From an uncultured Burkholderiales bacterium (lineage in GTDB: Bacteria; Pseudomonadota; Gammaproteobacteria; Burkholderiales; Burkholderiaceae_C): DNA of 64,000 nucleotides. The notes below the pieces were generated by a model. That model had not been told where the DNA came from, did no database searches, and saw only the letters and a list, made by a program, of their open reading frames with translations. The stretch is taken from the NCBI GenBank assembly GCA_903822825.1, contig CAIJQQ010000040.1, positions 17,627 through 81,626 on the forward strand. The letters are read 5' to 3'. The position numbers and the translations under genes are program-made. Positions 40,727 to 59,346 of the stretch are shown here, piece after piece; position 1 is the stretch's first letter; every line of letters starts with the position of its first letter.

Positions 40727-41919
40727 TGCAAACCGCGCAGGCGACCGATCCGCTTCGCCTGCCCCGGGTGTTGTGGCCCATGATGTTTGGCAACGCCGTC
40801 ATCGGCATGGGCGTGATGGTGGTGGCCGGCCTGCTCAACGACATCCACGCCGCACTCGAAGTGTCCATCACCACGGCGGGCCAGCTGATTTCGGTTTCGG
40901 CCTTTGTGGTGTGTTTGGGTGCCCCAGTGATTGCCGCATCGGTGGGCCGCTGGGACCGACGTGTCCTGCTGGTCGGCAGCATGGTCTGGTACGCCGTCTT
41001 TCACGCGCTGGCCGCGCTGGCACCTGGTTTTTACAGCCTGCTGGGATGGCGTGTGCTGGCCATGATGGCGGCTGCAGCTTACACCCCCCAAGCTGCCGCC
41101 TGCATCGGCATGCTGGTGCCACCTGCGCAGCGTGGGCGTGCCATCACTTTTGTGTTTTTGGGCTGGTCGATTGCGTCTGTGTTGGGTTCTCCGTTGGGAG
41201 CCTGGATCGGTGGCACCTTTGGTTGGCGCTGGTCCATGGGGCTGCTGTCCTTGCTGTCGTTGGTCTCGGCCGCATGGCTGGCCGCGCGCTTGCCGCGTGG
41301 TTTGGTGCCGCCCGCCTTGTCCGCCGCAGCTTGGCGTCAAACCTTGTCTTCACCCGCACTCATGCTGACGCTCAGCATCACGGTCATGTCGGCCGCAGGG
41401 CAGTTTGTGTTGTTCAGCTACATGGCACCCTATGTGGTGCAGCGTTTTGACACCACGCCCACGCAGTTCAGTTTGATGTTGTTGGCTTATGGGGGCTGCG
41501 GCTTCGTGGGCAACGCCTTGCTGTCGCGGCGCATCGACCACATCGGTGCCGAGCGAGCCGTGGGCATGGCCCTCAGCTCGATGGCGCTGGGCATGGCGCT
41601 GGTCAGCCAGACGCACACCTTCGGCTGGATGGTGGCGGCCATGCTGCCCTGGGGACTGGGTGTTTTTGCATCCAATTCGGCGCAGCAAGCGCGGCTGGTA
41701 GGCATCGCACCCACCCTGGCGTCTGCGTCGGTGGCGCTCAACACCTCGGCCATGTACTTGGGCCAAGCTATTGGCGCCACCTTGGGCGGCTGGCTGATCC
41801 TGCATCAGGGTTTGTCTGTTTTGCCGGGTATAGGCAGTCTGGGCCTCGTGATGGCGTTGGCGATGAGCCTGTGGGCTTCGCACATGGCAGGCAAACACCC
41901 GGTCAAAACGCTGCACTGA
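40726..41919 (+). CDS. MFS transporter
   Basis: 12-TM-like hydrophobic pattern; ATG overlaps the upstream stop. Confidence 0.88.
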   Translation: MQTAQATDPLRLPRVLWPMMFGNAVIGMGVMVVAGLLNDIHAALEVSITTAGQLISVSAFVVCLGAPVIAASVGRWDRRVLLVGSMVWYAVFHALAALAPGFYSLLGWRVLAMMAAAAYTPQAAACIGMLVPPAQRGRAITFVFLGWSIASVLGSPLGAWIGGTFGWRWSMGLLSLLSLVSAAWLAARLPRGLVPPALSAAAWRQTLSSPALMLTLSITVMSAAGQFVLFSYMAPYVVQRFDTTPTQFSLMLLAYGGCGFVGNALLSRRIDHIGAERAVGMALSSMALGMALVSQTHTFGWMVAAMLPWGLGVFASNSAQQARLVGIAPTLASASVALNTSAMYLGQAIGATLGGWLILHQGLSVLPGIGSLGLVMALAMSLWASHMAGKHPVKTLH

Positions 41920-42006
41920 GCACGCCCGCAAACAGGCCATAATCCAAAGGTTACCAACAAGCTACGTTGGATTTTTCTCTGCTTACGTCTTCTTTTCTTC
42001 TTGAAC

Positions 42007-43527
42007 ATGACACTTGCATTCACCAAAGTCGCCGTGATCGGCGCCGGGGCCATGGGCCGTGGCATTGCGCAGATTGCGACCCAAGCGGGCAGCCAAGTCT
42101 GGCTCTACGACGCCCAGCCCGAAGCCACCAGCAAAGCCCGAGATGCGGTATGCCAGCAGTGGGACAAGCTGCTGGAAAAAGGCCGCTTGACGGCCGAGAC
42201 CGTGGCAGGCCACAAATCCCGCCTTCACGAAGCCTCCAGCCTGCAAGACCTGGCCGAATGCGAGCTCGTGGTCGAGGCCATTGTTGAAAAAATCGAGATC
42301 AAGAAAGCCGTTTTCATCGATCTGGAGAAAGTCTTGGCGCCCACCGCCGTTCTGGTGACCAACACCTCTTCTCTGTCGGTCACGGCCATTGCGGCCGCGC
42401 TTGAGCGCCCAGGGCAGTTTGCGGGCTACCACTTCTTCAACCCCGTACCACTCATGAAAGTGGTCGAGGTCATTGCCGGCCTGAAAACAGACCCGACTGT
42501 ATGCCAGCGCCTGACTGCATATGCCCGCCAGATGGGCCACACGCCCGTCAATGCACAGGACACGCCCGGCTTCATCGTCAACCACGCAGGCCGTGGTTAC
42601 GGCACCGAAGCCCTGCGCATCGTGAGCGAGGGCATTGCCGACTTCGCCACCATCGACCGCATCTTGCGCGACCAGATGGGTTTCAAGCTCGGTCCCTTCG
42701 AGTTGTTCGACCTCACCGCGCTGGACGTCTCGCACCACGTGATGGAGTCGATCTATCACCAGTACTACGAAGAGCCCCGTTACCGACCCAACGTGATCAC
42801 GGCACAGCGCTTGGCCGCTGGCGTGGTAGGCAAGAAGGTGGGCGAAGGCTTCTACAAGTATGTGAACGGCGTGGCACAAGTGCCCGCAGACCCTGAAGTG
42901 CCTGTGGTGGACAACATGCCACCCGTGTGGGTGTCCACCCGCGCCGCGCGCCGTTCTGAGCTGCTGCAACTGCTCAAGGACTTGGGGGCCAAAATCGAGA
43001 CTGGCCAGTCGCCATCGCCTGAGGCCCTCACCATCGTGGCGCCATTGGGCTTTGACATCACCACCGTGGCGGTGGTCGAGCGTCTGGACCCGGCCCGCAC
43101 CGTGGGCATCGACATGCTGATCGACGACACGGCCACCAAGCGCCGCGTGCTGGCCACCAACCCAGCCACCCGCAAGGACATGCGCGATGCAGCGCACGCG
43201 CTGTTCGCACGCGACGGCAAGGCCGTGTCGGTGATCAAGGACAGCGGCGGCTTTGTCACTCAACGCGTGGTGGCTACCATCGTGAACATTGCATCGGACA
43301 TTTGCCAACAACAGATCTGCAGTCCTGACGACCTGGAAACCGCCGTGACATTGGGCCTGGCCTACCCCATGGGCCCACTGGCCATGGGCAACCGTTCAGG
43401 GCCAGACAGCATTCTGGAAGTGCTTTTCAACATGCAGACCGTCTACGGTGACCCGAGGTATCGCCCCAGCCCCTGGTTACGCCGCCGCGGTGCGATCGGC
43501 CTGTCCTTGCTTCACACCGAAGAGTGA
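42007..43527 (+). CDS. 3-hydroxyacyl-CoA dehydrogenase (PaaH-like)
   Basis: VAVIGAGAMGRGIAQIATQAGSQVWLYD; AGYHFFNPVPLMKVVEVI; two C-terminal 3HCDH-like regions. Confidence 0.93.
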   Translation: MTLAFTKVAVIGAGAMGRGIAQIATQAGSQVWLYDAQPEATSKARDAVCQQWDKLLEKGRLTAETVAGHKSRLHEASSLQDLAECELVVEAIVEKIEIKKAVFIDLEKVLAPTAVLVTNTSSLSVTAIAAALERPGQFAGYHFFNPVPLMKVVEVIAGLKTDPTVCQRLTAYARQMGHTPVNAQDTPGFIVNHAGRGYGTEALRIVSEGIADFATIDRILRDQMGFKLGPFELFDLTALDVSHHVMESIYHQYYEEPRYRPNVITAQRLAAGVVGKKVGEGFYKYVNGVAQVPADPEVPVVDNMPPVWVSTRAARRSELLQLLKDLGAKIETGQSPSPEALTIVAPLGFDITTVAVVERLDPARTVGIDMLIDDTATKRRVLATNPATRKDMRDAAHALFARDGKAVSVIKDSGGFVTQRVVATIVNIASDICQQQICSPDDLETAVTLGLAYPMGPLAMGNRSGPDSILEVLFNMQTVYGDPRYRPSPWLRRRGAIGLSLLHTEE

Positions 43528-43553
43528 TACGACCAACCGCGAAAGAACCTGAC

Positions 43554-44333
43554 ATGACCGCCCAACTGCTCAGCACCAGCGAGGGTCAGACACTGATCCT
43601 GACCCTCAGCAACCCCGAGTTCCGCAATGCGCTGGGCCCGGAAATGTACGCGGCCGGGGTTGAAGCACTGAGCGTGGCTGAAAGCAACCGCGAAGTGCGC
43701 AGCGTCATCATCACGGGTGCCAACGGCGTCTTCTGCGCCGGAGGCAACCTGCAGCGGTTGCAAAACAACCGGCAGTTGCTGCCCGAACACCAAGCGCAAA
43801 GCATCGAAGGCCTGCACAGCTGGATCGAGGCGATCCGTACTTTTCCCAAACCCGTGATCGCGGCCGTCGAAGGCCCCGCCGCAGGCGCAGGCTTTTCTTT
43901 GGCGCTGGCGTGCGACCTGATCGTGGCGGCCCGCAACAGTGTGTTCGTGATGGCTTACAGCTCCATTGGCCTGTCGCCAGACGGCGGTGGCAGCTGGAGC
44001 TTGTCGCGCGCCATGCCACGGCAGCTGGCCACCGAACTGCTCATGGGCGGCGAGCGCATCGACGCCGAACGCCTGCACACCTTGGGCATCGTCAACCGCC
44101 TGACCGAACCTGGCCAGACGCTCGGCATGGCTGTGGCCTGGGCAGAACAACTCAATGCCCGCGCGCCCAACGCCCTGGCCAGCGTGAAAGAGTTGTTGCT
44201 GGATGCGGAAGGCAGCAGCCTCAATGCACAATTGGCCCATGAGCGCGATCATTTTGTGAAAAACCTCCACCACACGAATGCCGGCATCGGCATCGGTGCC
44301 TTCTTGAACAAGCAAACACCTCGGTACGAATAA
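43554..44333 (+). CDS. Enoyl-CoA hydratase/isomerase family protein
   Basis: ITGANGVFCAGGNLQRL; VEGPAAGAGFSLALACDLIVAARNSVFVMAYSSIGLSPDGG. Confidence 0.93.
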   Translation: MTAQLLSTSEGQTLILTLSNPEFRNALGPEMYAAGVEALSVAESNREVRSVIITGANGVFCAGGNLQRLQNNRQLLPEHQAQSIEGLHSWIEAIRTFPKPVIAAVEGPAAGAGFSLALACDLIVAARNSVFVMAYSSIGLSPDGGGSWSLSRAMPRQLATELLMGGERIDAERLHTLGIVNRLTEPGQTLGMAVAWAEQLNARAPNALASVKELLLDAEGSSLNAQLAHERDHFVKNLHHTNAGIGIGAFLNKQTPRYE

Positions 44334-44390
44334 GCCGCCCGGTCCCCCAGGCGACAAAAATCGGATCACCAGTCACTCAAAAGACAGACC

Positions 44391-45110
44391 ATGGACGAAC
44401 CCATTCTGACAATGGAAGAAAGAGAAGCGATCAACAACGGTCGCTGGTTCTCAACCCTTTCACCTTCACTTCGGCACGACATACTTCGATGCGCTTACGT
44501 CAAACGCTACAAAGACGGCGACATGCTCGCGGCCCGCGGGGATCCGCCAGAGCAGTGGATCGCCTGCGCGAAGGGCGCCGTGCGTGTGAGCTCGACCTCG
44601 GTGTCGGGCAAGCAGATCACGCTCACCTATGTGGAGCCGGGCATCTGGTTTGGCGATGTGTCGATCTTCGACGGGGACCGCCGCACGCACGACTGCTATG
44701 CGCACGGGGACACCACCACTTTGAACGTGGCCAAGGCCGACTTCAAGAAGATCCTGTCACAACACGTCGAATTCTCCGAAGCCATGCTGCGCTTGCATGC
44801 GCGTCGCATTCGGCAGCTTTACGGTTTGGTGGAAGACCTCAACACATTGCCCTTGCGCTCGCGCCTGGCCAAACAGCTCAACCACTTGCTGCGCAGCTAC
44901 GGCGCGCCCAGCCTGTCGGACTCCAAAGCGATCCGCATCAGCCTGCAACTGGCGCAAGAAGAACTGGCCCAGTTGCTGGGGGCATCTCGCCAGCGCGTGA
45001 ACCAGGAACTCAAGCAAATGGAGCGAGATTTGATCATCCGTATAGAGCCGGGGGGGCTGGTGGTGCTGGACCGCGAGGGTCTGCTCAAGATCGTCAACGC
45101 GGACCACTGA
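44391..45110 (+). CDS. Crp/Fnr family transcriptional regulator
   Basis: cNMP-binding-like N-terminus; LQLAQEELAQLLGASRQRVNQELKQMERDLIIRIEPGGLVVLD HTH. Confidence 0.9.
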   Translation: MDEPILTMEEREAINNGRWFSTLSPSLRHDILRCAYVKRYKDGDMLAARGDPPEQWIACAKGAVRVSSTSVSGKQITLTYVEPGIWFGDVSIFDGDRRTHDCYAHGDTTTLNVAKADFKKILSQHVEFSEAMLRLHARRIRQLYGLVEDLNTLPLRSRLAKQLNHLLRSYGAPSLSDSKAIRISLQLAQEELAQLLGASRQRVNQELKQMERDLIIRIEPGGLVVLDREGLLKIVNADH

Positions 45111-45162
45111 CAGCCCGATTCTTTTTTCTTTTCAGCGCGCCCGTCGCGCCCACAGGTGCCCC

Positions 45163-46248
45163 ATGAGTGCTTTTGATCATTTCGTGGGGACCCGCCCGGT
45201 CTCGGGCGCCCACGCGTTCGATGTTTCCGCGCTACAGGCTTGGCTGAGCGCTCGCCTGCCAGGCTTTGCGGGTCCCTTGAGCGTCGAGATGTTCAAAGGT
45301 GGTCAGTCCAACCCCACCTACAAACTCATCACGCCAACCCGCCAGTATGTGATGCGTGCCAAGCCCGGTCCTGTGGCCAAACTGCTGCCTTCGGCGCATG
45401 CCATCGAGCGCGAGTTCGCCGTCATGAAAGGTCTGCACGGCACCGATGTGCCTGTGGCCGAAATGCATGTGCTGTGCGATGACGAATCGGTCATTGGCCG
45501 CGCCTTCTATGTCATGGAGTTTGTGCAAGGGCGCGTGATTTGGGACCAATCTTTGCCCGGCATGACGCCACCTGAGCGCGGCGCGATCTACGACGAGATG
45601 AACCGCGTGATGGCCGCCCTGCACAAGGTCGATTTTGCCAAGCAGGGCTTGGCCAGTTACGGCAAACCGGGCAACTACATCGAGCGCCAGATTGGCCGCT
45701 GGAGCAAGCAGTACGTGGCATCCGCCACCCAATCCATCCCCGAGATGGACAAGCTCATGGAGTGGCTGCCCAAAAATATCCCGGACAGCGCGAAAAGCGA
45801 AACCTTGGTCAGCATCGTGCACGGCGACTACCGCCTGGACAACCTGATGTTTCACGCCACCGAGCCACGCGTGCTGGCGGTGCTGGACTGGGAACTGTCC
45901 ACCCTCGGCCACCCTTTGGCCGACTTCAGCTACCACTGCATGGCGTGGCACATCACACCGGGCACATTCAGAGGCATTTGCGGTCTGGACTTTGCCACCT
46001 TGGGCATCCCGTCCGAGGCCGAATACATCCGCCGCTACTGCGAGCGAACAGGGTTCACCACCCCGCAAGCGCTGGCCAAGGACTGGAACTTTTACCTGGC
46101 CTACAACATGTTCCGCATCTCGGCGATTTTGCAAGGCATTGCCAAGCGCGTCGAAGATGGAACGGCCTCCAGCGACCAAGCCAAAAATTCCGGCGCAGGC
46201 GCCAAACCCATGGCCGAGTTGGCCTGGCAATTCGCCTGCAAATTCTGA
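45163..46248 (+). CDS. APH/phosphotransferase family protein
   Basis: FKGGQSNPTYKLITPTRQYVMRAKP; IVHGDYRLDNLMFHATEPRVLAVLDWELSTLGHPLADFSY. Confidence 0.93.
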   Translation: MSAFDHFVGTRPVSGAHAFDVSALQAWLSARLPGFAGPLSVEMFKGGQSNPTYKLITPTRQYVMRAKPGPVAKLLPSAHAIEREFAVMKGLHGTDVPVAEMHVLCDDESVIGRAFYVMEFVQGRVIWDQSLPGMTPPERGAIYDEMNRVMAALHKVDFAKQGLASYGKPGNYIERQIGRWSKQYVASATQSIPEMDKLMEWLPKNIPDSAKSETLVSIVHGDYRLDNLMFHATEPRVLAVLDWELSTLGHPLADFSYHCMAWHITPGTFRGICGLDFATLGIPSEAEYIRRYCERTGFTTPQALAKDWNFYLAYNMFRISAILQGIAKRVEDGTASSDQAKNSGAGAKPMAELAWQFACKF

Positions 46249-46280
46249 TTTTTCACCCCTGACCCACAAGGAGATACCCC

Positions 46281-47540
<1,260 letters not shown>

Positions 47541-47564
47541 TCGCTGAGCGAGCAACGTAAAAAC

Positions 47565-47600
47565 GGCCTGCTTCACACGCGTGCGGCAGGCCTTTTTTTT
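47565..47600 (+). terminator. Rho-independent-like terminator
   Basis: ggcctgc...gcaggcc followed by T8. Confidence 0.75.
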
Positions 47601-47640
47601 GCAACCATTTCTATTTTGAATCCACAAAAGGCCCGCAGCC

Positions 47641-48333
47641 ATGATCGACCTCTACACTTGGCCCACACCCAACGGCCATAAAATCCACATCATGCTGGAA
47701 GAGTGCAAACTGCCCTACCGGGTGCATGCGGTGAACATCGGCACGGGCGATCAGTTCCAACCCGAGTTCCTCAAAATCAGCCCCAACAACAAGATCCCCG
47801 CCCTGGTGGACTCGGATGGCCCGGACGGCAAACCTATCTCGATCTTCGAGTCGGGTGCGATGCTCATTTACCTGGCGGCCAAAACAGGCAGGTTCATGCC
47901 CAAGAGCGACCGGGCCAAATACGAGGTGCTGCAGTGGCTGATGTTCCAGATGGGCGGCGTCGGTCCCATGTTGGGCCAGGCGCACCACTTTCGGATCTAT
48001 GCGCCCGAGAAAATCGAATACGGCATCAACCGCTACACCAACGAAGCCAAACGCTTGTATGGCGTGATGGACAAGCAGTTACAACACCAGCCTTGGATGG
48101 CGGGCAAAAGCTATTCGATCGCCGACATGGCGATTTTCCCTTGGCTGCGCAGCTGGCAAAACCAGGGCATCGATTGGGCCGATTACCCCCACCTCAAGGC
48201 CTGGTTTGACCGCATCAGCGAGCGCAAAGCCGTGCAAAAAGCTGTTCAAGTGCTGGCCAATGCACGCAAGCCCCTGCTGGACGACAAAGCCAAACAGACC
48301 TTGTTTGGTGCCACGCAATACGAAAAACGTTGA
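47641..48333 (+). CDS. Glutathione S-transferase family protein
   Basis: MIDLYTWPTPNGHKIHIMLEECKLPYRVHAVNIGTGDQFQPEFLKISPNNKIPALVD. Confidence 0.92.
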   Translation: MIDLYTWPTPNGHKIHIMLEECKLPYRVHAVNIGTGDQFQPEFLKISPNNKIPALVDSDGPDGKPISIFESGAMLIYLAAKTGRFMPKSDRAKYEVLQWLMFQMGGVGPMLGQAHHFRIYAPEKIEYGINRYTNEAKRLYGVMDKQLQHQPWMAGKSYSIADMAIFPWLRSWQNQGIDWADYPHLKAWFDRISERKAVQKAVQVLANARKPLLDDKAKQTLFGATQYEKR

Positions 48334-48378
48334 GTTTGAACCGGAAACTTCAAAATCCGGGGTTAGAATACGGCCAGT

Positions 48379-48455
48379 CGGAGCGTAGCGCAGCCTGGTA
48401 GCGCATCTGCTTTGGGAGCAGAGGGTCGCGAGTTCGAATCCCGCCGCTCCGACCA
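48379..48455 (+). tRNA. tRNA-Pro (anticodon TGG)
   Basis: 77-nt cloverleaf cggagcg...cgctccgacca; anticodon loop tttggga; encoded CCA. Confidence 0.95.
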
Positions 48456-48485
48456 TTTCCAAGACCCGCGAGGGCACCTATCATC

Positions 48486-48508
48486 AAAGGCCCTCTGGGG
48501 CCTTTTTT
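48486..48508 (+). terminator. Terminator-like hairpin between the two tRNAs
   Basis: aaaggccc-tctg-gggcctttttt. Confidence 0.6.
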
Positions 48509-48514
48509 GTTTTT

Positions 48515-48591
48515 CTGCCCGTAGCTCAGTTGGATAGAGCAACAGCCTTCTAAGCTGTGGGTCACAGGTTCGATCCCTGTCGGGCAGACCA
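48515..48591 (+). tRNA. tRNA-Arg (anticodon TCT)
   Basis: 77-nt cloverleaf ctgcccg...cgggcagacca; anticodon loop cttctaa; encoded CCA. Confidence 0.95.
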
Positions 48592-48716
48592 AATCCCCCA
48601 AGCCCATCATCCCCACCATCGCCCTCCATGCGGGTTAGCCCTGATGTCAGATGCCATGAAGGCTTGTAAATTACTTCAAACTTCAAATATTGAAGCCTGA
48701 TTTACAAAGGACCGAC

Positions 48717-51050
48717 ATGAAAATCGTGTGCATTGGGGGGGGTCCCTCAGGCCTGTACTTTGCGTTGCTGATGAAAAAGCTCGGCCCCCACCATGACATC
48801 ACGGTGGTCGAGCGCAACAAGCCCTACGACACCTTTGGCTGGGGTGTGGTGTTTTCTGACCAGACGCTGGAGAACATGCGTCAGTGGGACATCGACACCG
48901 CCAACGAGGTGCAGCAGGCCTTCAACCACTGGGACGACATCGAACTGCATTTCAAGGATCGGGTGATCCGCTCGGGTGGTCATGGTTTTGTAGGGATTGG
49001 ACGCAAAAAACTCCTCAACATTCTGCAAGCGCGCTGCGAGCAGTTGGGCGTCAAACTGCTGTTTGAACAAGACGCCACCTCTGACCTCGACTTTCCTGAC
49101 GCCGACTTGGTCATCGCCAGCGATGGCGTGAACTCTCGGGTGCGCAGCCGCTTGCCCGAGGTGTTCAAGCCCGATATCGTGACCCGTCCCAACCGTTTCA
49201 TTTGGCTGGGCACGAACCGTCAATACGACGCCTTCACTTTCCTGTTCGAAAAAACCGAGCACGGCTGGTTTCAGGCCCACGTCTACAAATTCGACAACCA
49301 GACCTCGACCTTCATCGTCGAGTGCCCCGAGCACGTCTGGCTGGCGCACGGCCTGGACCAGGCCGACCAGGATGCGTCCATCGCCTTCTGTGAAAAACTC
49401 TTTGCCAAGAACCTGCAGGGCGAAAAGTTGATGACCAACGCCCGCCACCTGCGCGGCTCGGCCTGGTTGAACTTCCAACGCGTCAAGTGCGCGAAATGGT
49501 CCACGTTCAACGGCAACAGCCATGTGGTGCTGATGGGCGATGCAGTGCACACAGCGCACTTTGCGATTGGCTCGGGCACCAAGCTCGCACTGGAAGACGC
49601 CATCGAGCTGGTGCGCCAGTTCAAAGACCTTGGCGATACAGCACAACACATCCCCGAAGTGCTGCAACACTACCAGGCCGTGCGCGAGATCGACGTGATC
49701 CGCCTGCAAAACGCCGCCTGGAACGCGATGGAATGGTTCGAGGTGTGCGGCGAGCGCTACTGCGACCAGCTCGAGCCCGAGCAGTTCATGTACTCCATGC
49801 TCACCCGCAGCCAGCGCATCAGCCACGAGAATTTACGTCTGCGTGACACGGCCTGGCTGGAAGGCTACGAGGCCTGGTTTGCAGGGCGCACGGCCACGCC
49901 GGGCATTCGCCCGCCGATGTTCACGCCCTATACCCAACGCTCGGTCACGCTCAAAAACCGTGTGGTGGTCTCGCCCATGGCGCAATACATGGCGGTGGAT
50001 GGCCGCGTGGGCGACGACCACCTGGTCCATCTGGGCGCACGCGCCATGGGCGGTGCTGGGCTGGTGATGGTCGAGATGACCGCACCCAGCGCCGACGGTC
50101 GCATCACGCACGGCTGCCCGGGTTTGTGGAATGAGCAGCAGACCGCCGACTTTGCAAGAATAGTGGACTGGGTGCATGCCAAATCTGACGCGAAGATCGG
50201 CCTGCAGATTGGCCACGCCGGGCCCAAAGGCTCGACCTGCCGACCTTGGCAAGGCGCGGGCATGGACCAGCCTGTGCCCGCTGACGATGCGGAAGGCAAC
50301 TGGCCGCTGATCGCCGCGTCGCCCATGCCCTATTTGCCCCATGGCGATGTACCCCGCGCCATGACCCGCGCCGACATGGACCGCGTCACGGCCGACTTCG
50401 TGGCCAGCACCCAGCGCGCTGCCCAAGCTGGTTTTGACTGGCTGGAGTTGCACTGCGCCCACGGCTATCTGTTGTCGAGCTTCATCAGCCCTCTTACAAA
50501 TCAGCGCACAGATGAGTACGGCGGCTCGCTCGCCAACCGCCTGCGTTACCCGCTCGAAGTGTTTGCCGCTGTGCGCGCCGCTTGGCCCAAAGACCTGCCC
50601 ATGTCGGTGCGCATCTCGGCGCACGACTGGGTCGAAGGCGGCATCACGCCCACCGACGCGGTCGAGATCGCCCGCGCCTTCAAGGCTGCAGGCGCCGACA
50701 TGATCGACTGCTCATCGGGTCAGGTCAGTGCGCATCAAAAGCCCACTTACGGCCGCATGTACCAAACCCCCTTTGCCGACCGCATCCGCCAAGAAGCGGG
50801 CATCGCCACCATCTCGGTGGGTGCCATCAGTGAAGCCGACCACGTCAACAGCATCCTGGCCGCTGGCCGCGCTGACCTCTGCGCCGTGGCTCGCCCTCAC
50901 CTGGCCAACCCGGCCTGGACCTTGACCGAAGCGGCGCGCATCGGCTTCAAAGACGTGGCCTGGCCGCGTGCTTACGTATCAGGCAAGCCACAGCTCGAAG
51001 CAGGTTTTGCCCGCGAGCGTGCCATGCAGACCGCGAGCAAGGGGGACTGA
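48717..51050 (+). CDS. Fused FAD monooxygenase / OYE-like reductase (2-aminobenzoyl-CoA monooxygenase/reductase-like; often annotated salicylyl-CoA 5-hydroxylase/oxidoreductase)
   Basis: N-terminal [35 protein letters not shown]-terminal OYE domain [57 protein letters not shown]. Confidence 0.9.
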
Positions 51051-51080
51051 GATGTCGCATAAAAGTGCAGGATCGACGCC

Positions 51081-51160
51081 CTCGTCGCAATCTGCAGGTG
51101 TGGGAGCCGCGCCCTCGCGGCGATTGGGCGTCCATCGCGGCGAGGGCGCCGCTCCTACGG
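51081..51160. repeat. REP-like repeat cluster (two clear units plus a partial one)
   Basis: TGTGGGAGCCGCGCCCTCGCGGCGATTGGG (51099-51128) and inverted TCCATCGCGGCGAGGGCGCCGCTCCTACGG (51131-51160), preceded by a partial cgacgccctcgtcgcaat. Confidence 0.75.
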
Positions 51161-51170
51161 AGGCCAAAGC

Positions 51171-51962
51171 ATGCTGAGCAACCGCCACGCCCTCATCACC
51201 GGAGCCGGTGCAGGCATTGGCGCGGCCATCGCATTGAAGCTCGCGCAAGCGGGTTGCCGCTTGACCCTGTGTGGCCGCTCGCAAGACAAGCTGCAAGCGC
51301 AAGCCGAGGCGCTGCGCGCACAGGTGCCCGATGTGGCGGTGTTGATTGCGCCCATGGATGTGGCCGATGTCCACGCCGTGCAAGCCGCAGTGCAGCAGGC
51401 CCAGGCCCACTTTGGCCCCGTCAACATCTTGGTCAACAACGCGGGCCAGGTGAGCAGCCAGCCCTTTGGCAAGACCGATGCCGCGCTGTGGCAGCAGATG
51501 CTGAACGTCAACCTCACGGGCACATACCACTGCATCCAGGCGGTGTTGCCTGGCATGCTCGAAGCGGCCGCCAGTGGAACCCCCGGGCGCATCGTCAACA
51601 TCGCCAGCACGGCGGGCCTCAAAGGCTACGCCTATGTGAGCGCCTACGTGGCGGCCAAGCACGGTGTGGTGGGCTTGACCAAAGCCTTGGCTCTGGAACT
51701 GGCCCGCAAGGGCGTGACCGTGAACGCCATTTGCCCCGGCTACACCGAGACCGACATCGTGCGCGAAGCGGTTCAAAACATCGTGAGCAAAACAGGCAAG
51801 AGCGAGACCGAAGCTCGCCAAGCGCTGGCCGCCAGCAACCCGCAGCAGCGCTTGGTGCAGCCGCAAGAAGTGGCGCAAAGCGTGTTGTGGCTGTGTGGCG
51901 CGGGCAGCAATGCGATCAACGGCCAAGCCATTGCCATTGATGGCGGGGAGCTGGCTGGATGA
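51171..51962 (+). CDS. SDR family oxidoreductase
   Basis: HALITGAGAGIGAAIALKLAQAGCRLTLCGRS; YVAAKHGVVGLTKALALELARKGVTVNAICPGYTETD. Confidence 0.93.
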   Translation: MLSNRHALITGAGAGIGAAIALKLAQAGCRLTLCGRSQDKLQAQAEALRAQVPDVAVLIAPMDVADVHAVQAAVQQAQAHFGPVNILVNNAGQVSSQPFGKTDAALWQQMLNVNLTGTYHCIQAVLPGMLEAAASGTPGRIVNIASTAGLKGYAYVSAYVAAKHGVVGLTKALALELARKGVTVNAICPGYTETDIVREAVQNIVSKTGKSETEARQALAASNPQQRLVQPQEVAQSVLWLCGAGSNAINGQAIAIDGGELAG

Positions 51963-52447
51963 GCAGCATGACCGACATGGAAGTGCGCGCACATGCTGAC
52001 CACCACGCTTCGCTGCGCCTGTGGTTGCGTCTACTCTCGGCCACCACCCGCATCGAAGACACGATCCGCCAACGCTTGCGCGAGCAGTTTGGCATCACGC
52101 TGCCGCGCTTTGACCTGATGGCGCAACTAGAGCGTGAACCGCAGGGTTTGTCGATGGGCGAGCTGTCGCGCCGCATGATGGTCACGGGTGGCAACGTCAC
52201 AGCCATAGTCGACCAGCTCGAAAGAGAACAACTGGTGCAGCGGCAAATGCAGGCCAGCGACCGCCGCTCGTACACCGTCAGCCTGACCGATGCCGGGCGC
52301 AGCGCTTTCGCGGCCATGGCCCTGGCGCACGAAGGCTGGGTCGTCGAGCTGCTGTCGCCGCTGACTGAGCAAGAACAAACACAGTTGCATCAATTGCTGG
52401 GCACCTTGAAGTCCGGCACCCCTACACACATTAAGGAGACAAAATGA
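51959..52447 (+). CDS. MarR family transcriptional regulator
   Basis: w[77 protein letters not shown]. Confidence 0.92.
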
Positions 52448-53304
52448 CCCAACGCTACCTGCCCGGCCAGCCGCACCAGCTGCCCCGCCACAACCAGCCC
52501 ATGGCGGGTTACCAGCCCGAGCATTTTTTACTGTCCGTCAAAGACGGTGTGGCCACGGTGAGCCTGAACCGCCCCGAGCGCAAGAACCCTCTGTCGTTTG
52601 ATTCGTACGCCGAGCTGCGTGACTTTTTCCGCGCCTTGCCCTACGCACCCGACATCCACGCCGTGGTCATCACGGGCGCCGGCGGCAACTTCTGTTCGGG
52701 TGGCGATGTGCACGAAATCATCGGCCCGCTCACCCAACTCGACATGCCCGGCCTCTTGGCCTTCACCCGCATGACGGGCGACTTGGTCAAGGCCATGCGC
52801 GCCTGTCCGCAGCCCATCGTCGCGGCGATCGACGGCGTGTGTGCGGGCGCAGGCGCGATCCTGGCCATGGCGTCTGACCTGCGTTACGGCACCGAGCGCA
52901 GCAAGACCTATTTCCTGTTCAACAAAGTCGGCTTGGCCGGTTGCGACATGGGTGCCTGTGCGCTCTTGCCGCGCATCATCGGCCAAGGCCGTGCGAGCGA
53001 GCTGCTCTTCACCGGGCGCGGTCTGGGCGCACTGGAGGCCGAGCGTTGGGGTTTTTACAACCGCGTGTGCGAGGCAGACACCGTGCTGGCCGATGCACAG
53101 GCCATCGCCGCCCAGTTGGTGGCCGGCCCCACCTTTGCCAACGGCATCACCAAAAAAATGCTGCAACAAGAGTGGAACATGGGCGTGGACGAAGCCATCG
53201 AAGCCGAAGCCCAGGCCCAAGCCATCTGCATGGCCACCAACGACTTCCACCGGGCGTACCACGCCTTTGTGGCCAAGCAAACGCCCGTTTTTGAAGGGGA
53301 CTGA
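52444..53304 (+). CDS. Enoyl-CoA hydratase family protein
   Basis: [70 protein letters not shown]. Confidence 0.92.
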
Positions 53305-53307
53305 GCC

Positions 53308-54522
53308 ATGTCAGACCACCCAGCCACTCACCCGCCAGAACTCGACTGGCCCTTCTTTGACAACAGCCACCGCGACTTCAAAGTGCGCCTGGACGCCTGG
53401 TGCAACGCGCACCTGGCCCACGCCCATCACGACGAAAGCCGCGACGCGGTGGACGCCGAATGCATCCGCCTGGTGCGCCTGCTGGGCAGCGGCGGTTGGC
53501 TTAAACATGCGGTCTCGGGCACAGCCTATGGCGCAGCGTCAGACGTGATCGACACCCGCCAGCTGTGCCTGCTGCGCGAAACGCTGGCTTTTCACAATGG
53601 CCTCTCGGACTTCGCGTTTGCCATGCAGGGCTTGGGCACAGGTGCCATCAGCCTCATGGGCACAGCCGATCAAAAGCAGCGCTACCTGGCGCGTGTGGCG
53701 TCGGGCCAGGCCTTGAGCGCCTTTGCCTTGAGTGAACCCGATGCAGGCTCGGACGTGGCCGCCATGCAGTGCAGCGCCACGGCCACGGCAGACGGCTATG
53801 TGCTCAACGGCCGTAAGACCTGGATCAGCAACGGCGGCATCGCCGACTTTTATGTGGTGTTTGCCCGCACGGGCGAAGCGCCCGGCGAAGGCTTGGGTGG
53901 CACCCCTGGCCGGGGTTCCAAGGGCATCACAGCTTTCATTGTCGATGCCGACACGCCCGGTCTGTCGATTGAAGAGCGCATCGACGTGGTGGCCCCTCAC
54001 CCGCTGGCCACGCTCAAGTTTGATAACTGCAAGGTCGCTGCCAAGCAACGCATTGGCGAAGCGGGTCAGGGCTTCAAGGTCGCCATGGCCACGCTCGATG
54101 TGTTCCGCACCTCGGTGGCAGCGGCCGCTTTGGGCTTTGGGCGGCGTGCGCTGCACGAGTCCATCAGCTGGGCGCGTTCACGCAAGATGTTTGGCCAAAG
54201 CCTGGGCGACTTTCAGATCACGCAGGTCAAGATCGCGCAAATGGCGACCATGCTTGACGCGGCCACGCTCTTGACGTACCGCGCCGCTTGGCTGCGCGAC
54301 CAAGGTGGGCGCATCACCCGCGAAGCGGCCATGGCCAAGATGACCGCCACCGAAAACGCCCAGCAGATCATTGACATGGCGGTGCAGATGCACGGCGGCA
54401 TGGGCGTCAAAAAAGGCGTGATGGTCGAGTCGCTCTACCGCGAGATCCGTGCGCTGCGCATCTACGAAGGCGCCACCGAAGTGCAGCAGCTGATCATTGG
54501 CAAGGACTTGTTGAAAGCTTGA
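53308..54522 (+). CDS. Acyl-CoA dehydrogenase family protein
   Basis: [70 protein letters not shown]. Confidence 0.95.
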
Positions 54523-54523
54523 C

Positions 54524-56203
54524 ATGAGCGACTGGAACCAACTGCTGCCCAGCAGCCACAGCGACACCTTTGCGCGTGACCGGCTGCCGCCGAAGGACCA
54601 ACTGCCGGTGTTCATGGCGGATCGACCTGAGCTGGACTACCCGGATGTGCTGAACTGCGCGGTGGAACTCGTGGACCGGCACGTGGAGGCAGGCAAAGGC
54701 GATCGCATCGCGCTGCATGGCGTGAGCGATTTCAACAAGGGTGGCGGCGACTTCAGCTGGACGTATGCGCAGTTGCAAGACAAGAGCAACCGCATCGCCC
54801 AGGTGTTGACCCACGACATGGGCCTCGTGCCCGGCAACCGCATTTTGCTGCGCGGCGGCAACAGCCCCATGATGGCGGCTTGTTTGCTGGGTGCGCTCAA
54901 GGCGGGCCTGGTGGCGGTGCCCACCATGCCGCTGCTGCGTGCGGGCGAGTTGGCACAGATCATCGACAAAGCGCAGGTCAGCGCCGCCCTGTGCGACAGC
55001 CTGCTGGCCGACGAACTGCAGCATTGCATGACGCCTGGCCACGCCAGCCACATGGCCAGCTTGCAGCAGCTGGTGCAGTTCCGCAGCGATGCTCCTGATG
55101 GCCTGGAGCAGCGCATGGTGCAGCAAAGTGGCGCGTACACGCCTCACGCCACCAGCCGCGACGACGTGTGCCTGATTGCGTTCACCAGCGGCACCACGGG
55201 CCAACCCAAGGGCACCATGCACTTCCACCGCGATGTGCTGGCCATGTGCGATTTGTTCCCGCGCCACATCCTGCAAATGAACGAGAACGATGTGGTCTGC
55301 GGCACGCCGCCCATCGCCTTCACTTTCGGGCTGGGCGGGCTGCTGGCGTTTCCGCTGCGCTACGGCGCGAGCACCGTGCTGCTCGAAAAGCACACGCCCG
55401 AGACCTTGATGCAGACCATTGCCAAGTACCGCGCCACGCAGTGCTACACCGCGCCCACCCTATACCGCCAGATGGCAACGCTGGCCAAAGGCGTTGACCT
55501 GTCGAGCCTCAAGCACCCTGTCTCAGCAGGCGAGGCCTTGCCCGACGCCACACGCCAGCTGTGGAAGCAGGCCACGGGCATCGAGATGACCGACGGCATT
55601 GGCGGCACCGAAGTGATCCACATCTACATCTCGAGCGCGGGCGCGCAAGTGCGCCCCGGCAGCATTGGCCAAGTGGTGCCCGGCTATGTGGCGCAGATCG
55701 TGGGCGACGACATGCAACCCGTGCCGCCCGGCACCGTGGGGCGGCTCGCGGTGCGCGGCCCCACAGGCTGCAAATACCTGGCCGACCCGCGCCAGCAAGA
55801 CTATGTGAAAGACGGCTGGAACCTGCCCGGCGACACCTTCGTCATGGACGCCGACGGCTACTTCAGCTACCAGGCGCGCAATGACGACATGATCATCTCG
55901 GCGGGCTACAACATCGCAGGCCCCGAGGTGGAAGGCGCTTTGCTGCAACACCCGGCCGTGGCCGAATGCGGCGTGGTCGGCATGCCCGACGAAGACCGCG
56001 GCCACATCGTGCAGGCCTATGTGGTGCTCAAGCCCGGCCACACGGGCGATGCGGCCACAGAAAAAGCCTTGCAAGAGCACGTCAAGCAAACCATCGCCCC
56101 ATTCAAGTACCCGCGCAAGGTGGTCTTTTTGGACGCCTTGCCCCGCACCGAAACCGGCAAACTGCAGCGCTTCAAGCTGCGTCAAATTTCAGTCAACAAA
56201 TAA
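54524..56203 (+). CDS. Aryl-CoA ligase (benzoate-CoA / 2-aminobenzoate-CoA ligase family)
   Basis: IAFTSGTTGQPKGTMHFHRDVLAMCDLFPRHILQMNENDVVCGTPPIAFTFGLGGLLAFPLRYGAS; YNIAGPEVEGALLQHPAVAECGVVG. Confidence 0.9.
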   Translation: MSDWNQLLPSSHSDTFARDRLPPKDQLPVFMADRPELDYPDVLNCAVELVDRHVEAGKGDRIALHGVSDFNKGGGDFSWTYAQLQDKSNRIAQVLTHDMGLVPGNRILLRGGNSPMMAACLLGALKAGLVAVPTMPLLRAGELAQIIDKAQVSAALCDSLLADELQHCMTPGHASHMASLQQLVQFRSDAPDGLEQRMVQQSGAYTPHATSRDDVCLIAFTSGTTGQPKGTMHFHRDVLAMCDLFPRHILQMNENDVVCGTPPIAFTFGLGGLLAFPLRYGASTVLLEKHTPETLMQTIAKYRATQCYTAPTLYRQMATLAKGVDLSSLKHPVSAGEALPDATRQLWKQATGIEMTDGIGGTEVIHIYISSAGAQVRPGSIGQVVPGYVAQIVGDDMQPVPPGTVGRLAVRGPTGCKYLADPRQQDYVKDGWNLPGDTFVMDADGYFSYQARNDDMIISAGYNIAGPEVEGALLQHPAVAECGVVGMPDEDRGHIVQAYVVLKPGHTGDAATEKALQEHVKQTIAPFKYPRKVVFLDALPRTETGKLQRFKLRQISVNK

Positions 56204-56249
56204 CTTTGCGGGACAGATCTTTAGCTCTGTCCCCAACCAAGGAGAAAGC

Positions 56250-56645
56250 ATGTTCAACGTCTTGCAACCCGAAGGCTGGGCACCCGCCAAAGGCTATGCC
56301 AATGGCATCGAAGCGCGTGGCCGCATGGTGTTCGTCGCGGGCATGATCGGCTGGAACGGCCAAGCCCAATTCGAGACCGACGACTTTGTGGCCCAGTGCC
56401 GTCAAGCCCTGCAAAACATCGTCGACACGCTCGCGTGCGCAGGCGCAGGCCCGCAGCACATGGCGCGCATGACTTGGTACGTCAAAGACAAGAAGGAATA
56501 CTTGGCCCGTGGCCGCGAGCTGGGCAAGGTTTATCAGGAAGTCATTGGCAAGAACTACCCGGCCATGACGCTGGTGCAGGTGGCTGATTTGGTGGAGGAC
56601 CGGGCGCTGGTGGAGATTGAGGTGACGGCGGTGGTGCCGGAGTGA
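56250..56645 (+). CDS. RidA family (enamine/imine deaminase) protein
   Basis: GYANGIEARGRMVFVAGMIGWNGQAQFETDDFVAQCRQALQNIVDTLACAGAGPQHMARMTWYV; KNYPAMTLVQVADLVEDRALVEIEVTAVV. Confidence 0.9.
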   Translation: MFNVLQPEGWAPAKGYANGIEARGRMVFVAGMIGWNGQAQFETDDFVAQCRQALQNIVDTLACAGAGPQHMARMTWYVKDKKEYLARGRELGKVYQEVIGKNYPAMTLVQVADLVEDRALVEIEVTAVVPE

Positions 56646-56839
56646 ACGTAAAAGGCCTTGATTAGAAGCTGCAGAATGCCTAGATCGATCGGTGGGTTTA
56701 GGCTGATTGAAGTATTTTGAGCGACTTGGTCTGACCGACCGCCACCTAAAGCAGACCTAATCGACGATGTGGCCTTCAGCCAGATGCTGAAGCAGCGATC
56801 AAATGCTTAGCCAAACTGCGCGAAAAACTACCAGTCCGC

Positions 56840-57496
56840 CTAAGTGTCGTCGCTAAATGCAATAGATTTACCGTTTGACGGGATTGGACGGCGTACCAGG
56901 TTGTGTTGAAAATTTTTCAGATGATCCGCGAGGAACTTGCAATTTCGGTTCGCAGTTTCCTTGAGATTTGCGTTTTGGGTTTGTTTGGAAAGTTGAGACC
57001 AGTAATGGATTCCGTCAGCGATAGCGTGCTCAATGAATGGCACCGGATCCTTCGGGTTCGGAGGGATCTTGATGCAAGGCAAGCCTACGAGCACATAGGT
57101 CTGACGGTCATCGCTATACATCGTTCGCTGCGCGGCCCACAATGCGATTGGGAGTGGAAGCCCTAGAAATTGCTCAAACACTCCTTTGCTTATGCCCTGA
57201 GCTTCCGCACCCATGATTGGCAACAAGCTGCCCAAATATCCCCGGGCACCTGCGTACATGGCACGCTCGCTGAGTTCGTGCCATGACCAGCATGAGTTAT
57301 TAATGAGAAGTGGCGCAGCCAATGGGGAGAATCCATGTGAGACAAAGAACCAGGTTCCATCGTTCATCGATACCCCCATCGAGCCATTGACTCGCTTGAT
57401 TTTTTCGCTGTGAACGATGTACCTCCTCGCCATGTCAATTGCGGCTGGGGGCGGACCACGCCATTCGGTAGCCAACGGATGCGGTATGTGGGTCAT
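56840..57496 (-). CDS. Orphan hypothetical protein with CHAT/caspase-like sequence pattern
   Basis: WFFVSHGFSPLAAPLLINNSCWSWHELSERAMYAGARGYLGSLLPIMGAEAQGISKGVFEQFLGLPLPIALWAAQR; ATG overlaps the upstream gene's TGA. Confidence 0.6.
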   Translation of the reverse strand: MTHIPHPLATEWRGPPPAAIDMARRYIVHSEKIKRVNGSMGVSMNDGTWFFVSHGFSPLAAPLLINNSCWSWHELSERAMYAGARGYLGSLLPIMGAEAQGISKGVFEQFLGLPLPIALWAAQRTMYSDDRQTYVLVGLPCIKIPPNPKDPVPFIEHAIADGIHYWSQLSKQTQNANLKETANRNCKFLADHLKNFQHNLVRRPIPSNGKSIAFSDDT

Positions 57497-58275
57497 CAAG
57501 CCGCCACTGAAAGGGACTGTGGTTCATCCAGAAAGCTGTCGGCCCGCAGCGTGATCACCAAGGTGTCGCGCCATGCGGTGCCTTCGCCCAGCGGCTGGAT
57601 CGGCGTGGTCTCGTGGATCACCCGGTGGTCATTGAGCAAGAGCAATGACCAAGGCTCGTTCAAGGTGAACCGTTGGCCGCGCGGGCTGTCGACGTCAAAG
57701 ACCCGCGTCTCACCACCCTTGATACCGTGGCGCCCAATCAGGAATACCGCCACCCAGTCCACGCCGTCGCGGTGCGCGCCTTCGGGCGTTGGGCGGCCAA
57801 TGCCGTCGGTGGTGTCGATGCGAAACTGGTGTGCTTCGGTGAACCAGGTTGCGCCGCCCTGCGCTTGACTGGCCACAGACCCCAGCCATTGCATCAAAGC
57901 CTGCCAGGCGGGCTGCGCCAGCACTTCGGCCTGCATGGGGTCAAACCAGCGTTGCATGCCGCCGTGCAGCGCGTTGTAAGACACAGGCTGCCAATGCGCC
58001 CGGTGGGGCATGGTCTGGACCCCATCGGCACGCACTTGGAGGCTGGCGTGGCGCCGGCGCCGGTAGCGGCCTCCGTCTTTCAGATACAGGTCAGGCGGCA
58101 ATTCGTTCCAACTTGGCTCCAGCGCCCGCAAGGCAGGCAAAGACACCCCGGCCAAAGCGCAGACACTGTCAGCACCCAACACTGCGAAACCGTGGCGCTC
58201 CAAATCGGTGAGCAGTCGGTCGGCGGATGTCAACGGAGGCGACAAGTCGTGCGGGGGCATGAGGGAACTCTTCAA
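57496..58275 (-). CDS. 2OG-Fe dioxygenase family protein (isoleucine dioxygenase-like family)
   Basis: FRIDTTDGIGRPTPEGAHRDGVDWVAVFLIGRHGIKGGETRVFD...LLLLNDHRVIHETTPIQP; HxD...H pattern. Confidence 0.8.
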   Translation of the reverse strand: MKSSLMPPHDLSPPLTSADRLLTDLERHGFAVLGADSVCALAGVSLPALRALEPSWNELPPDLYLKDGGRYRRRRHASLQVRADGVQTMPHRAHWQPVSYNALHGGMQRWFDPMQAEVLAQPAWQALMQWLGSVASQAQGGATWFTEAHQFRIDTTDGIGRPTPEGAHRDGVDWVAVFLIGRHGIKGGETRVFDVDSPRGQRFTLNEPWSLLLLNDHRVIHETTPIQPLGEGTAWRDTLVITLRADSFLDEPQSLSVAA

Positions 58276-58326
58276 AAAGCAAAGGCGCTAGCATAGCGCC
58301 TTGCCGCCCCGGCGGATGGAGGCAGC

Positions 58327-59346
58327 TCAGGCGTAGCGCTGACTGGCCAGCTTGGCCCCTTCAGCCAGCGCCTTGAGTTTGGCCTCGGCCACAGCGCGGC
58401 TCATGGGGGCCAGGCCGCAGTTGGTGCAGGCAATCAGGCGGTGCTTGGGTACGAACTGCAAGGCGCGGCCAATGGTGTCGGCGATTTCTTCGGGTGTCTC
58501 GATGGCCGGGTTGGCCACGTCGATCACGCCAACCATCACGTCTTTGCCCTCGAGCAACTTCATCATTTCCATCGGCACATGCGAATGCATGCACTCCAGG
58601 CTGACTTGCTGGATGCTGCTTTTAGCCAATGCTGGAAACACCTTTTCGTACTGACGCCACTCTTGACCCAGCGTCTCTTTCCATTTGTTGTTGGCTTCGA
58701 TGCCGTAGCCGTAGCAAATGTGCACAGCGGTGGTGCAGGTCAGGCCGCGTGCGGCCACCTCCAACGCCTTGACGCCCCAATCGGCCGCGTCGTCCATGTA
58801 GACGTTGAAGGCGGGCTCGTCAAACTGGATGATGTCCACACCGTCGGCTTGCAGCGCCAGTGCTTCTTGGTTCAACAACTCGGCAAAGGCCATGGCCATC
58901 TTGACCTTGTCACCATAAAAGCGATCAGCCACCGTGTCCACAATCGTCATGGGGCCAGGCAAGGTGAATTTCAGTTTTTTCTTGGTGTGGGCGCGGGCCA
59001 ATTGGGCTTCAAAGGCGTGCACGCGGCCCTTGAGGCGCAGGGGTGCGATGACCTGAGGCACTTGGGCGTCGTAGCGGTTGTTGCGGATGCCCATAGTGAC
59101 TTTGTTCACGAAGTCGATGCCTTCGACCTGTTCAACAAAACCATGCACAAAGTGCTGACGGGCCTGTTCGCCGTCACCGATCACGTCCAGCCCAGCGTCT
59201 TCTTGCGCCTTGATCCACAGCAGCGTGGCGTCGGCCTTGGCTTGCTGCAGCTCGGGCCCTTGGGTGGTCCACTGGGGCCAGAGTTTTTCGGTTTCGGCCA
59301 ACCAAGCGGGTTTGGGCAAGCTGCCAGCGATCGCGGTGGTGAACAT
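58327..59346 (-). CDS. Single-domain cobalamin-independent methionine synthase (MetE C-terminal domain-like) protein
   Basis: MFTTAIAGSLPKPAWLAETEKLWPQW; DGEQARQHFVHGF; IIQFDEPAFN; VHICYGYG, LECMH, CTNCGLAP Zn-site-like motifs. Confidence 0.88.
   Translation of the reverse strand: MFTTAIAGSLPKPAWLAETEKLWPQWTTQGPELQQAKADATLLWIKAQEDAGLDVIGDGEQARQHFVHGFVEQVEGIDFVNKVTMGIRNNRYDAQVPQVIAPLRLKGRVHAFEAQLARAHTKKKLKFTLPGPMTIVDTVADRFYGDKVKMAMAFAELLNQEALALQADGVDIIQFDEPAFNVYMDDAADWGVKALEVAARGLTCTTAVHICYGYGIEANNKWKETLGQEWRQYEKVFPALAKSSIQQVSLECMHSHVPMEMMKLLEGKDVMVGVIDVANPAIETPEEIADTIGRALQFVPKHRLIACTNCGLAPMSRAVAEAKLKALAEGAKLASQRYA

Follow-up and report, generated by a model that had tools for sequence, protein, structure and literature searches.

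In this article, I ask what is encoded by a solitary open reading frame (ORF) of low GC content that lies between core genes and a catabolic operon in 64,000 nucleotides of DNA from an uncultured Burkholderiales bacterium (the whole of this stretch is called the window below), and whether it is a short protease in its own right or what is left of a longer gene. The original prediction, made from the sequence alone, saw in its product a His and a Cys placed as in the CHAT/caspase-fold proteases and left the choice between a diverged or truncated protease, perhaps a remnant of a defence or toxin gene, and a new short family. Both the ORF and the peptide quoted from it are present in the window sequence, where the frame occupies 56840-57499 of the minus strand, reading from 57499 to 56843 with the stop codon at 56842-56840, and has 219 codons when counted from a TTG or 218 from an alternative ATG start at 57496-57494. 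The features discussed here are collected in Table 1.

Table 1. Positions of the features discussed; entries with an L number lie on other contigs, all others in the window.
Feature	Position	Strand	Remark
Truncated CHAT-like gene	56843..57499	-	C-terminal ~195 codons of a ~600-codon gene
H55 codon in 'FFVSHG'	57335..57337	-	Equivalent to L080 H448; conserved in 5/5 family members
C70 codon in 'INNSCWSW'	57290..57292	-	Aligns with L080 C463 and the CHAT catalytic Cys
Low-GC stretch, ~0.8 kb	56708..57499		Absent from congeners
Intact 2OG-Fe dioxygenase gene (PF10014)	57496..58275	-	Probable deletion edge
RidA-type gene (Ribonuc_L-PSP)	56235..56645	+	Last gene of the catabolic operon; convergent with the fragment
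Aromatic acyl-CoA catabolic operon	48690-56645
Caspase-like protein, contig C27 of the same genome	L025:883-2832		649 aa
Caspase-like protein, contig C48 of the same genome	L026:1420-2928		502 aa
Tn3-type transposon, Hylemonella gracilis	L079:7400-10610		TnpA; near-identical terminal inverted repeats
CBASS-type operon, Pseudoxanthomonas sp. PXM01	L082:2990-7830		CD-NTase, E2, 2TM-SAVED, then an undescribed 619-aa CHAT-like gene
WYL regulator gene, Pseudoxanthomonas sp. PXM01	L082:1962-2876		Divergent from the operon
Two genes upstream of the intact gene, Ca. Thiodiazotropha	L080:554-2162		DUF4145 gene and a 269-aa protein of no known kind
Phage-type integrase-like gene, Ca. Thiodiazotropha	L080:7283-8647		Assigned by eye
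Distant relative, genome G615	L068:136-3129

Composition and direct database matches

The lower GC content that had been remarked on by eye is borne out by both overall composition, with about 0.51 in the ORF versus 0.60-0.66 in most of the adjoining DNA, and third codon positions, where the ORF has 0.57 and the two flanking genes have 0.77 and 0.78. Searched directly, the ORF matches the Pfam CHAT profile (PF12770) over positions 213-282 of 289 with an E-value of 0.0068 and 16.3 bits, which is below the curated cut-off of 24 bits for membership; the Cys segment and the downstream AGAR/GSL region of the domain are present, and the N-terminal strands and the catalytic His are absent. Searches of PADLOC, NCBIfam, PHROGs and the PDB with the ORF alone returned no match, no sigma-70-like promoter was found around it, and the predicted structure of the fragment alone is of low confidence (mean pLDDT 40).

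The same genome encodes two further caspase-like proteins, on contigs C27 and C48, with YSGHG/YAGHG and DACR motifs and unrelated to the fragment. As a source of the fragment they were rejected, being separate genes whose matches lie in the front and middle parts of the CHAT profile.

Full-length relatives and the missing front

Among 401 genomes of the same bacterial family one clear match came to light, in Hylemonella gracilis (53% identity over residues 24-81), and no second one among 399 genomes from the phylum. With the H. gracilis protein as the query, intact relatives were retrieved from Ca. Thiodiazotropha (L080, 598 aa), P. mexicana (L081, 620 aa) and Pseudoxanthomonas sp. PXM01 (L082, 619 aa), a family to which no model in Pfam, NCBIfam or PADLOC is dedicated. 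The product of the ORF is 44% identical to residues 416-593 of the Thiodiazotropha protein (E 1.5e-47) and stays collinear with it to the natural C-terminus with no frame break, and since the match is to the C-terminal part and runs to the end, the ORF corresponds to the last third of such a gene. The homology is firm from about position 57430 to the natural C-terminus, while codons 1 to ~22 are weakly alignable or read-in. Through these relatives, together with a profile comparison described below (hhalign probability 89%), the CHAT-like signature of the original prediction is not only beyond chance but firm; its suspicion of an N-terminal truncation was right, and the homologs with longer N-terminal domains that it proposed to look for exist. 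The idea of a new short family has to be given up, the intact relatives being three times longer. Judged by these alignments, the ORF is no complete protein but the C-terminal ~195 residues of a rare family of ~600-residue proteins.

The front of the gene was sought in the whole assembly from which the window comes (89.1% complete) with the full-length Thiodiazotropha protein, and only the ORF stretch was found, with no N-terminal part; neither the ORF nor any other part of the assembly has residues ~275-337 of that protein, which hold the SSHAGD segment. None of 35 congeners carries a recognisable relative of the ORF protein, nor was one found among plasmids and phages (by tblastn) or viral contigs (by pattern). 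Two phage matches at E 0.7 were dismissed as noise, and weak matches to residues 93-133, from several genomes of that bacterial family, were set aside as chance similarity to what by eye is an AMP nucleosidase-like protein.

The H. gracilis copy is broken as well, from the other end. Its frame of ~478-484 aa holds only the front part of the gene and ends just past 'NNSCWSWHEL', where it runs into DNA beginning GGGGTCTCC, and an inverted copy of this DNA follows after ~3.2 kb, the two enclosing a gene for a Tn3-type transposase (DUF4158 N-terminus). A Tn3-type transposon has severed the H. gracilis CHAT-like gene from its C-terminal end after codon ~469; the missing part was not found beyond the transposon, and the gene stands alone at its locus.

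The locus and its junction

The genes nearest to the fragment are the RidA gene of the catabolic operon, the 2OG-Fe dioxygenase gene and methionine synthase. DNA conserved among congeners stops at ~56707 on the RidA side and resumes at ~57516, at the end of the dioxygenase gene, whose TGA (57498-57496) overlaps the fragment's ATG by a single base (TGATG). The dioxygenase gene is as long in the window as in the congeners, and because its length is normal and the fragment begins at its stop codon, the breakpoint lies there. When the interval between the fragment and RidA was compared with the retrieved loci, a search for remnants of transposons or genes turned up only the conserved RidA tail.

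The neighbouring operon comprises genes for a bifunctional enzyme of the salicylyl-CoA 5-hydroxylase type, an SDR, a MarR protein, an enoyl-CoA hydratase, an acyl-CoA dehydrogenase, a benzoate-CoA ligase-like protein and RidA, and probably degrades 2-aminobenzoyl-CoA or salicylyl-CoA.

The explanation that I favour, and hold to be very probable, is that a gene encoding a rare CHAT-like cysteine protease ~600 residues long came in by horizontal transfer and has lost its 5' part, the ORF being the pseudogene that is left. In the parent, an N-terminal region of ~270 residues precedes a CHAT domain; there, one strand ends in the His (DVIVFSSHAGD), an insert comes next, and a further strand leads to the Cys (VIFNNSCWSW). 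Roughly the first 400 codons, the His included, would have been removed here by a deletion or rearrangement whose end lies at the dioxygenase stop codon, and the remnant has only the Cys half, cannot form the dyad and most likely does nothing. The frame has stayed open over 219 codons with the most conserved motifs still in place, so either the loss is recent or the fragment is still translated.

The TGATG overlap, which could couple translation of the fragment to that of the dioxygenase gene, is a counterpoint to the pseudogene and, together with the long open frame and its intact motifs, is what a functional small protein would have to offer. Such a protein might be non-catalytic, as a regulator or decoy, or might act with a separate N-terminal partner like a processed caspase, but I consider this improbable in view of the lack of such a partner in the organism's own genome (89% complete in this assembly), the lack of a stand-alone C-terminal piece in any other genome searched, and the ordinary nature of the upstream gene, a 2OG-Fe dioxygenase that congeners possess without the fragment.

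Somewhat less probable again is an assembly error that joined unrelated sequences, so that the organism itself would lack the truncation. The window does come from a single draft assembly of 66 contigs and 89.1% completeness, the junction recurs in no other genome, and the compared congeners have the RidA gene and the dioxygenase gene on separate contigs; yet one congener (G013) has the blocks corresponding to window positions 41134-48591 and 57516-59130 on a single contig, in unchanged order and ~5 kb apart, which indicates that the arrangement on either side of the junction is native on a large scale and makes a chimeric contig unlikely. Between these blocks G013 has branched-chain amino-acid transporter-like genes (by eye) in place of the catabolic operon and the fragment, and this collinearity with differing content marks the locus as a variable spot and lends credence to the order of the contig.

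Which His pairs with the Cys

The family has two invariant His residues close to the end of a strand, H334 in SSHAGD (SSH[AS]GD across the family) and H448 in SHGF, and an invariant Cys, C463, in NNSC (Thiodiazotropha numbering), with C463 lying 129 residues after H334. When the family alignment was compared by hhalign with an alignment of 30 true CHAT domains from the order, the probability was 88-89% and the score 39, with H334 placed on the CHAT His; in the controls, the best of 30 column shuffles scored 24 and the reversed alignment 17 (probability 0.25%). The direct comparison has gaps around the Cys and does not place it cleanly, and the Cys assignment rests on a bridging protein (L068, a 1053-aa frame that matches Pfam CHAT at E 1.7e-4), whose THG and NNSC fall on the CHAT His and Cys, and to whose motifs the family's SSHAG and NNSC are aligned in turn (probabilities 94.5 and 95.7%). 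By these alignments, which are at the level of sequence, the conserved His and Cys of the family correspond to the CHAT dyad in the three intact relatives, and the catalytic Cys probably has its equivalent in C70 of the fragment, whose partner His is lost, as the SSHAGD segment lies in the missing part. An AlphaFold model of the full-length protein, built from 5 sequences, is of low confidence (mean pLDDT 44).

The bridging protein is itself a distant relative, with a similar N-terminal region, a CHAT domain containing the THG and NNSC, and then a repeat-like region.

The original prediction had paired the His and Cys that remain, had called their spacing short and had made the idea depend on their conservation. 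The short spacing from H55 (in SHG) to C70 (in NNSC) is real and both residues are invariant in all five family members, but H55 does not align with the CHAT His, whose counterpart is H334 in the lost part, and the odd spacing is thereby explained. That the ORF might nonetheless be a complete, diverged short caspase-like protease with H55 and C70 as its dyad is the least probable reading of all, for despite the invariance of both residues, fifteen residues cannot accommodate the elements between His and Cys of a CHAT domain, the other invariant His is the one that aligns with the CHAT His, and the intact relatives are far longer. A truncated domain can evidently mimic an active-site pair, the nearest conserved His here not being the CHAT one.

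A probable defence role for the parent

In Pseudoxanthomonas sp. PXM01, genes for a CD-NTase (E 3.8e-100), an E2 protein (2.2e-64) and a 2TM-SAVED protein (2.5e-113) lie directly upstream of the intact gene on the same strand, which suggests that the CHAT-like gene belongs to a CBASS system, and in P. mexicana the C-terminus of a SAVED protein is encoded just upstream of the intact gene. No CBASS genes were seen beside the Thiodiazotropha and Hylemonella copies, and there are none beside the window copy. The Thiodiazotropha gene directly follows the two genes listed in Table 1, which may be defence cargo, and its contig also bears the integrase-like gene. The parent protein matched no PADLOC model.

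The position of an intact gene behind CBASS genes in Pseudoxanthomonas makes the parent probably a defence protein, inferred to work as a protease against phages, and the scattered distribution and contexts fit a mobile defence gene. On the foreign, low-GC origin and on the remnant of a probable defence gene, the original prediction was right. A more specific proposal, which I put forward tentatively and would not bet on, is that the intact family is an undescribed phage-defence protease that sometimes adds one more gene to an E2-type CBASS operon containing 2TM-SAVED. If so, a caspase-like protease would work jointly with the CBASS signal or with the E2 step of CBASS, and a family of defence proteases would add a protease component to CBASS-type immunity; no paper mentioning the CHAT domain and CBASS together was found in a library of open papers, which is weak evidence. 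The feature in the window is a gene remnant and of little weight in itself, and its value is that it led to a rare CHAT-like family with one member on an integrase-bearing contig, one behind a CBASS operon and one further copy broken by a transposon.

Comparison with known systems

The CHAT proteins already known in defence include Csx29 and Borvo (PMC10952713; PMC10028731), and in Csx29 43 residues lie between H615 and C658 (PMC10028731), as against a His-Cys spacing of 129 in the parent family. With the CHAT proteases (PF12770), among them Borvo and the TPR-CHAT protein Csx29 of type III-E CRISPR (Craspase), the window ORF shares the Cys-side half, namely the strand leading to NNSC, AGAR.Y.GSL.P, the C-terminal ALW.AQR and the YV.VGLP strand. 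Further matches in the intact relatives are the strands upstream and a His where CHAT has one, whereas the window ORF has lost the His half. The parent family differs from CHAT in an insert of ~100 residues that parts the His segment from the Cys segment, and its Pfam score stays under the cut-off. Type II CBASS with E2 and 2TM-SAVED adjoins the intact gene in Pseudoxanthomonas but not the window copy. A CHAT-like protease tied to SAVED and to cyclic oligonucleotide signalling has a precedent in the SAVED-CHAT protease of CRISPR-Cas type III-B. There, SAVED and CHAT form one protein, whereas in the parent family SAVED is encoded by a neighbouring gene, and in one lineage only.
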